Of a stretch of 35,142 nucleotides of DNA, positions 17,343-34,858 are shown piece by piece. Within the stretch, counting starts at the first letter, position 1; the number at the start of each line of letters is the position of its first letter. This DNA comes from Candidatus Nomurabacteria bacterium (GTDB lineage: Bacteria; Patescibacteriota; Minisyncoccia; Phycocordibacterales; UBA5272). Made by a program: the position numbers and the translations under genes. The notes under the pieces were generated by a model, which ran no database searches, was not told the origin of the DNA, and saw nothing but the letters and a program-made list of their open reading frames with translations. Where the stretch lies: positions 1-35,142 of the forward strand of contig JARIGQ010000014.1 in the NCBI GenBank assembly GCA_029288775.1. Reading direction: 5' to 3'.

Positions 17343-17381
17343 TGGGTGTATCTCGACGCTCCATTCTTTTTCTCTGTTTGT

Positions 17382-17975
17382 ATGAATAAGGAAGCAAAGA
17401 TGAAACAGTTGGAAGAGGAGGTTTTGGCGCGTATTGATTTGCCACTGTATGCTTTTCGAAAAGAAAATAACTATCTTCCCGTGATGGGCGAGGGTTCGCT
17501 TGCGGCTAAAGTGTTTTTTGTAGGAGAGGCACCAGGTAAGACAGAAGCAGAAACTGGTAAGCCATTTTGCGGGAGATCTGGGAAATTTTTAAGTGAAATG
17601 CTGGCTTCTATTGGACTTACCCGCGAGGAAGTCTTCATCACAAGTGTGGTCAAAGATAGACCGCCGGAGAATCGAGATCCTACTCCTCAAGAGATTGCGT
17701 TGTATGGACCATATTTGGATAAGCAGTTAGAGATCATCAAGCCACAGGTTATTGTACTTTTGGGACGCATCAGTATGAAATACGTTTTTACATTGGTGGG
17801 TATCGAAGACGAGCTTGATACGATAGGTACGATGCACGGTAAGGTATATATGGGGAAACTTTCTTATGGAAAGGTAACGCTTTTACCGCTGTATCATCCC
17901 GCGGCAGCACTGTACAATCCAAAAAATAAATCGGTGCTTTTGGAGGATTTTAAGGTGGTGAAAAACTATATATAG
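17382..17975 (+). CDS. udg: Family 4-like uracil-DNA glycosylase lacking Fe-S cysteines
   Basis: Removes uracil from DNA to start base excision repair. Residues are numbered from ATG 17382. Motif A is GEAPGKTEAETGKPFCG (E49 region) and motif B is HPAA (H172), both typical of family 4 UDGs, as is the RPPENRDPTPQE segment. Family 4 enzymes normally bind a 4Fe-4S cluster through four Cys. Here the N-terminal CxxC is absent (ARIDLPLYAFRK) and the later pair is replaced by D92 (KDRPP) and Y108 (ALYGPYL). The frame can extend to GTG 17346, but ATG 17382 gives the better N-terminus. Confidence 0.88.
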   Translation: MNKEAKMKQLEEEVLARIDLPLYAFRKENNYLPVMGEGSLAAKVFFVGEAPGKTEAETGKPFCGRSGKFLSEMLASIGLTREEVFITSVVKDRPPENRDPTPQEIALYGPYLDKQLEIIKPQVIVLLGRISMKYVFTLVGIEDELDTIGTMHGKVYMGKLSYGKVTLLPLYHPAAALYNPKNKSVLLEDFKVVKNYI

Positions 17976-34000: not shown

Positions 34001-34858
34001 TTATTCTACTTGGATAATGGTGGCAAAAGGGAGGTATCTTTTGTTCCACGTGTCTTGTCGCTTTGCATATTGCATGGTTTTGGTGATAAGTTCCTGCTTC
34101 ATGTCTTCTTCGGAAAGTGCGCCTTCAAGGTATTTGCCAATAGTTTCATATTCTAAACCAAAGCGCTTCATATGTAAGGAATCAAATCCTTTTTCCATCA
34201 GCTGTTTTACTTCCTCTATCATGCCTATGTTCAGTCGCTTTTCCAAACGTGCAGCAATTCTTTCTCGCAATAATGCTCGCGTAGGCTGAAGAAGGTAGAG
34301 CTCTGTGTCATAGAGAAGTTTTGGTTCATGTAAAACTGGCACGAAGCCAAGTTCATGCACAATCTCAAGCGCCCGAATGAGGCGAACTTTGTTATATCTA
34401 TCGACTGTATCTGCGCGGTAGGGGTCTTTCTCTGCCAGTTCACGATAGAGTTCGTCTACGTCTTTTTCTTCAAGTTCTTGGCGCAGGGTTTTGTTTGGAG
34501 GCACCGGTGGAGTGGCGACATCATACATGAGCGCGTCGATATATTGGCCGGTACCGCCACAAATGATCGGGGTTTTGCCACGAGCGAGGACGTCTTCTAG
34601 AATCGGTCGCGCGAGGCGTGCGTATTCTGCAACAGAAAAGTCTTCTCCTACATCAACTACATCAAGCATGTGATGCGGAATACCTTTCATCTCTTCGGTG
34701 GTAATCTTTCCGGTCCCAATATCCAAGCCTTTATAGACTTGTCGGGAATCTGCAGAAATAATTTCTCCATTTACTTTATGGGCAAGCTCCACAGCAAAGT
34801 CACTCTTCCCGCTTGCGGTAGGTCCGGCGACGACGATGACTTTATAACTTTCCTTCAT
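34001..34858 (-). CDS. miaA: tRNA dimethylallyltransferase
   Basis: Adds a dimethylallyl group to N6 of A37 in tRNAs reading UNN codons. The P-loop is GPTASGKS (residues 12-19). The conserved DSRQVYKGLDIGTGK segment, the HHMLDVV motif (normally HHLID) and GGTGQYIDAL (normally GGT-LY) are present, as is the YNKVRLIRALEI region. It is 285 residues, somewhat shorter than E. coli (316). It lies upstream of gatB on the same strand and diverges from the glutaredoxin-like gene. Confidence 0.97.
   Translation of the reverse strand: MKESYKVIVVAGPTASGKSDFAVELAHKVNGEIISADSRQVYKGLDIGTGKITTEEMKGIPHHMLDVVDVGEDFSVAEYARLARPILEDVLARGKTPIICGGTGQYIDALMYDVATPPVPPNKTLRQELEEKDVDELYRELAEKDPYRADTVDRYNKVRLIRALEIVHELGFVPVLHEPKLLYDTELYLLQPTRALLRERIAARLEKRLNIGMIEEVKQLMEKGFDSLHMKRFGLEYETIGKYLEGALSEEDMKQELITKTMQYAKRQDTWNKRYLPFATIIQVE

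Follow-up and report, generated by a model that had tools for sequence, protein, structure and literature searches.

Canonical uracil-DNA glycosylases (UDGs) of family 4 carry a [4Fe-4S] cluster that pins the N-terminal CxxC arm to the RPPxNR-bearing loop that lies between the third and fourth ligands. An open reading frame of a Candidatus Nomurabacteria bacterium raises the question of whether such an enzyme can do without its cluster, and of how the cluster came to be lost. The gene lies in a contig stretch of 35,142 nucleotides, which is called the window below; the host is a patescibacterium with a draft genome of 692,275 bases (~692 kb; 98.9% complete). A preliminary description, made from the letters of the window, had proposed a family 4 enzyme with a cluster-free fold, perhaps owing to a limited capacity for Fe-S assembly in a reduced genome. 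Features of the gene are collected in Table 1; for the reading frame at 17382-17975, mechanical ORF calling also allows an alternative GTG start at 17346.

Table 1. Position of the uracil-DNA glycosylase gene in the window and of the residues discussed in the text.
Feature	Position	Strand	Basis
Putative cluster-free family 4-type uracil-DNA glycosylase, 197 aa	17382..17975	+	TIGR00758, PF03167, AlphaFold2 model
R-I-D-L, codons 17-20, aligned with the N-terminal CxxC; neither Cys kept	17430..17441	+	alignment
Four-residue insertion of the window clade, codons 29-32, after the lost CxxC arm	17466..17477	+	alignment
Motif 1 GEAPG (48-52), E49 = Thermus E41	17523..17537	+	sequence, alignment
Ala, codon 56; Asp in 98% of full-ligand homologues	17547..17549	+	alignment
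Ser (AGT), codon 88, in place of the Asn that contacts uracil (Thermus N80, UdgX N91)	17643..17645	+	alignment
Asp, codon 92, at Cys ligand 3 (Thermus C84)	17655..17657	+	alignment
Asn, codon 97, intact; the residue of motif 3 that positions water (Thermus N89)	17670..17672	+	alignment
Tyr, codon 108, at Cys ligand 4 (Thermus C100)	17703..17705	+	alignment
Motif 2 HPAA (172-175), H172 = Thermus H155, intact	17895..17906	+	alignment

The predicted protein gives the only PF03167 match in the whole genome (E 1.4e-36) and is thus its sole UDG-superfamily gene. With 189.4 bits it passes the cut-off of the family 4 profile TIGR00758 (125.3 bits); the type-4 equivalog model NF040953 is the best-scoring one, yet its score of 203.9 bits remains below the cut-off of 250, and the UdgX profile TIGR03914 stays below its own (76.3 against 190 bits). 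Among solved structures 4zbx, the Sulfolobus tokodaii UDG, is nearest; an AlphaFold2 model (pLDDT 92.1) fits it with Z 29.9 and 1.5 Å across 188 residues, while TDG structures reach only about Z 15. The preliminary description had allowed for a closer match to one of the UDG families devoid of a cluster; instead, by structure as well as by sequence, the best matches are family 4 enzymes that bear one. Membership in family 1, 2, 3 or 6 was rejected on motifs (GEAPG and HPAA with RPPxNR), profile scores and structure comparison, and we give it next to no probability. Family 5 (UDGb), defined by the motifs GLAPA and HPSPLN (PMC10359453), was also rejected: both motifs are absent, and GEAPG and HPAAAL are found instead. 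A scan of viral contigs yielded no viral relatives. By descent and by predicted fold, the protein is a member of family 4; our reading is that of a cluster-free variant which probably remains a uracil glycosylase. If the cluster is taken as a defining trait, the protein is not a full member of the family.

Comparison with characterized enzymes supplies the details. Family 4 UDGa enzymes (4zbx, Thermotoga TM0511 1vk2 and Thermus 1ui0) share its fold within 1.5-1.8 Å, are 38-46% identical to it in structural alignment, and have motif 1 GE(A/G)PG, motif 2 HPA and motif 3 RPPxNR in common with it. Unlike them, the window UDG lacks the [4Fe-4S] ligands, has a serine for Thermus N80, and shows residues and insertions that will be described below as traits of its clade. 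UdgX of Mycobacterium smegmatis (6ail) is similar in fold at a lower level (Z ~24, 24% identity), but keeps the cluster, GEQPG and the KRRIH crosslinking loop, in place of which the window UDG has GEAPG and DRPPEN. No published cluster-free family 4 UDG was found among open-licence papers, which is weak evidence of novelty.

Residues were assigned by alignment to 4zbx, 1vk2 and 1ui0, and numbers in the core equal the Thermus (1ui0) number plus 8; Thermus E41, F54 and N89 thus become E49, F62 and N97. All four ligands are gone, as the preliminary description had stated, with D92 and Y108 at the two later positions; R17 and L20 occupy the places of the N-terminal cysteines. The single cysteine of the protein, C63, lies outside the ligand positions. 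RPPxNR is kept with its N97, a residue with 100% conservation. The accompanying statement that the catalytic motifs are intact needs a correction: GEAPG, HPAA and the DRPPENRDPTPQE segment (residues 92-104) are present, but the uracil-binding asparagine has become Ser88.

UDG matches were detected in 80 of the 118 genomes of the host's order. The aligned set comprised most of these 80 together with a further 100 taken from a sample of the whole phylum, which was drawn for family diversity among the best-scoring matches listed and with SufB/D status visible at selection. Aspartate at 92 together with tyrosine at 108 (the window type) is shared by 61 sequences, spread over 48 GTDB families. In the UDG tree these sequences group as a single clade, and a single change accounts for the type when the tree is built without the trait columns. 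Both residues are identical in all 61 homologues, and chance is therefore excluded as the origin of the ligand replacement. Further traits of the clade are A56, F111, P33, Y134, S20 (in 93% of members) and insertions at 29-32 and 141-146. Positions 17 and 20, which are cysteine in 100% of full-ligand homologues, bear L/F and S in the clade, with mostly hydrophobic residues (L, F, M) at 17; codons 29-32 fall in a gap in 100% of full-ligand homologues, and N29 is found in 88% of the clade. The possibility that close orthologues might retain the cysteines, raised at the outset, can be set aside: the ligand set is missing from each of the 61 aligned members, and Cys-bearing or partly degraded UDGs are found elsewhere in the order, in other of its families and outside the clade.

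Absolute conservation of D92 and Y108, along with a near-constant S20, would also fit a different metal site in place of the cluster (Fe or Zn, for instance, held by Asp, Tyr and Ser), as an alternative to packing. We consider this very unlikely: the hydrophobic character of position 17 and the leucine found at position 20 of the window UDG would leave at most two potential ligands, and the clade has gained no conserved Cys or His. Alanine or serine at 56 accompanies D92 in 61/61 clade members, and position 56 aligns with UdgX Asp59, an essential residue for which a salt bridge with a motif 3 Arg has been described (PMC10776899). The joint D56A and C92D exchange suggests a carboxylate that moved from one position to the other; the two changes make up one event, and for this reason the idea is offered as a suggestion.

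Ligand states are diverse among relatives. Besides the canonical CxxC/C/C set, we found CxxC/H/C, C-x-C or single-Cys arms with K-Y and Cys, K-Y/F in Saccharibacteria-like sequences, K-R/Y, and the D and Y of the window type. Histidine as third ligand (CxxC...KHRPP...C) was observed in 24 sequences (L100, L101, L123, L135 and L139 among them), and SufB/D or IscU is present in the genomes of all 24, which suggests a natural Cys3His ligand set.

The preliminary description had proposed a search for isc/suf genes, and neither SufB/D nor IscU/NifU was detected in the host. Matches were missing for SufB/D (SUFBD_core, PF01458), the IscU/NifU scaffold (NifU_N, PF01592), radical SAM proteins (PF04055), the A-type carrier (Fe-S_biosyn, PF01521) and Fer4 ferredoxin (PF00037), all of which were matched in control genomes; the search covered these named families in a draft that is nearly complete, and absence is not proof. 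A cysteine desulfurase-like gene was seen, apparently split over two contig ends (G000:C8:5275-6051 and G000:C7:26-295; L244, L245). Kept in a genome with no detected Fe-S scaffold, it could serve tRNA thiolation. The window also encodes a MiaA-like tRNA dimethylallyltransferase (34001-34858, minus strand), named from its translation only; no radical-SAM protein of MiaB type was found. A genome of the same genus (G090) shows the opposite pattern, with IscU and radical SAM proteins present and no UDG match.

Is ligand loss related to Fe-S machinery beyond this genome? A full ligand set was defined as Cys-Cys-Cys/His-Cys, and machinery as SufB/D or an IscU/NifU scaffold. Among 176 patescibacterial homologues (62 with full, 44 with partial and 70 with no ligands), machinery was found in the genomes of 61/62 full-ligand, 21/44 partial-ligand and 12/70 ligand-free UDGs (Fisher, full against none, p 6e-24). 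When each GTDB family was counted once, 39 families were full with machinery and none full without, 19 had lost ligands with machinery and 59 without (p 5.5e-17; 7 families were mixed). In 20 further loci, added later, the ligand set was full in 10 cases with machinery and in 1 without it, and lost in 3 and 6 cases, respectively. A Pagel-type four-state likelihood test, run on a short gene tree with weak support and not on a species tree, favoured dependent evolution (LR 27.3, p 1.7e-5), with a ligand-loss rate of 2.56 without machinery and 0.33 with it, that is, about eight times faster without; the rate of ligand gain lay at its lower bound. An independent-pairs test on starred branches found only 3 supported pairs and had no power. 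The association lends support to the earlier reading of a cluster-free family 4 enzyme tied to poor Fe-S assembly.

An association of this kind might reflect shared ancestry only, if one old clade lost both traits by accident. The single origin of the window type is in line with that view, as is the large share of the signal that comes from the host's order (53 of the 58 ligand-free UDGs without machinery). Such an accident seems unlikely, however, when the rest of the tree is considered. The best tree shows about 14 changes of ligand state, machinery accompanies 57/58 full-ligand cases outside the order, the replacement residues differ in further ligand-free types (K-R with Y, K-Y with F), and the likelihood ratio given above favours dependence.

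The relationship is not a rigid one. A strict rule of "no scaffold, no cluster" was rejected, given the scaffold-bearing genomes among ligand-free and partial cases and two genomes (G186, G389) with full-ligand UDGs and no detected scaffold; SufB/D alone was rejected as a predictor because 30/62 full-ligand genomes have IscU without SufB/D. Eleven of the 61 window-type UDGs reside in scaffold-bearing genomes, so that the form can be retained even where machinery is present. These eleven include 6 of the 7 found outside the order, which indicates that the type persists in, or moves into, genomes able to make clusters. Nothing relevant to loss of Fe-S assembly in CPR was found in the open-licence literature.

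We regard as probable that the window UDG is a family 4 enzyme that folds without [4Fe-4S], and that its ligands were lost after cluster assembly had been lost. The lineage of an ancestor would have lost the capacity to assemble clusters; the ligands would then have been without value, and relaxed selection would have led to their loss. Once lost, they would never have been regained. D92, Y108 and the longer arm would have been fixed afterwards, with D92 and Y108 filling the old cluster site, and no metal would be held there. Packing of L/F17, S20, D92, Y108 and the four-residue arm extension may do the anchoring job of the cluster. If packing has replaced the anchor, the protein should still work, and the chemistry would still be performed by the motif 1 Glu, the stacking Phe62, the motif 3 Asn97 and the motif 2 His172. 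Precedent exists for partial independence from the cluster: Cys-to-Ser changes in the Pyrococcus and Archaeoglobus UDGs reduce activity by only ~40%, and the cluster is proposed to stabilise the loop that two of its cysteines hold in place (PMC5295032).

Ser88 bears on the quality of the window's own enzyme and not on the clade. Asparagine occupies this position in 189/191 homologues, including 59/61 members of the window clade; the only other serine is that of L029, and the AGT codon is one step away from an Asn codon. Thermus N80 contacts uracil through two hydrogen bonds, with N3 and O4, and the N80A change lowers k2/Km from 2.4e5 to 5.5e3, a ~44-fold loss (PMC5387724); the equivalent UdgX mutant, N91A, is inactive (PMC10776899). 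Judged from the substitution, S88 in the sole UDG of the genome may entail lower activity or altered specificity. One could go further and propose that robust uracil glycosylase function has been lost in this lineage, the enzyme being in decay or re-specialised and the ligand loss a sign of general decay. The rarity of the substitution and the crippled Asn mutants just mentioned would agree with this proposal. We find it rather improbable, as the other active-site residues of the window UDG are intact, the catalytic residues of the 61-member clade are, like D92 and Y108, conserved at or near 100%, hydrogen bonding, as donor or acceptor, remains available to serine, and the reading frame of this only UDG is undisrupted.

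Other base-excision enzymes of the order were also considered. A clusterless MutY is, like the window UDG, a glycosylase naturally devoid of [4Fe-4S], with an HhH fold unrelated to that of UDGs. Enzymes of this kind have already been described (Trasvina-Arenas et al. 2016, as cited in PMC11078426), and the host genome encodes one: its MutY-like protein (L224:418-1281) matches TIGR01084 over residues 1-190 of 277 only. The match ends about where the [4Fe-4S] loop would begin, and that segment contains no Cys. All readable MutY-like proteins of the order lack the cluster loop, SUF-bearing genomes included, and within the order MutY cluster loss therefore does not track SUF; it is older, or general in the order. 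Nth-like proteins of the order with a readable segment have a degraded four-Cys loop, in which 0-3 Cys are left (L200, L201, L213, L221, L222). A broader reading, which we advance tentatively as something possible, is that the clade, which many members of this order possess, converted its family 4 UDG into a metal-free enzyme through coordinated exchange (the CxxC arm turned into L..S plus the four-residue insertion, C92D coupled to D56A, and C108Y), that base excision repair with UDG, MutY and a degraded Nth became independent of Fe-S, and that in the species of the window the additional N88S has shifted base recognition as well.

The role of [4Fe-4S] in base-excision glycosylases has long been disputed, the candidates being DNA-mediated signalling, loop anchoring and stability. 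Patescibacteria provide natural intermediates, with Cys4, CCHC, three-ligand and ligand-free UDGs in genomes with and without cluster assembly. Activity and stability across these natural versions could reveal what the cluster is for, with no need of engineered mutants. In a wider sense, the case shows repair enzymes following a cofactor pathway that is lost as genomes shrink.
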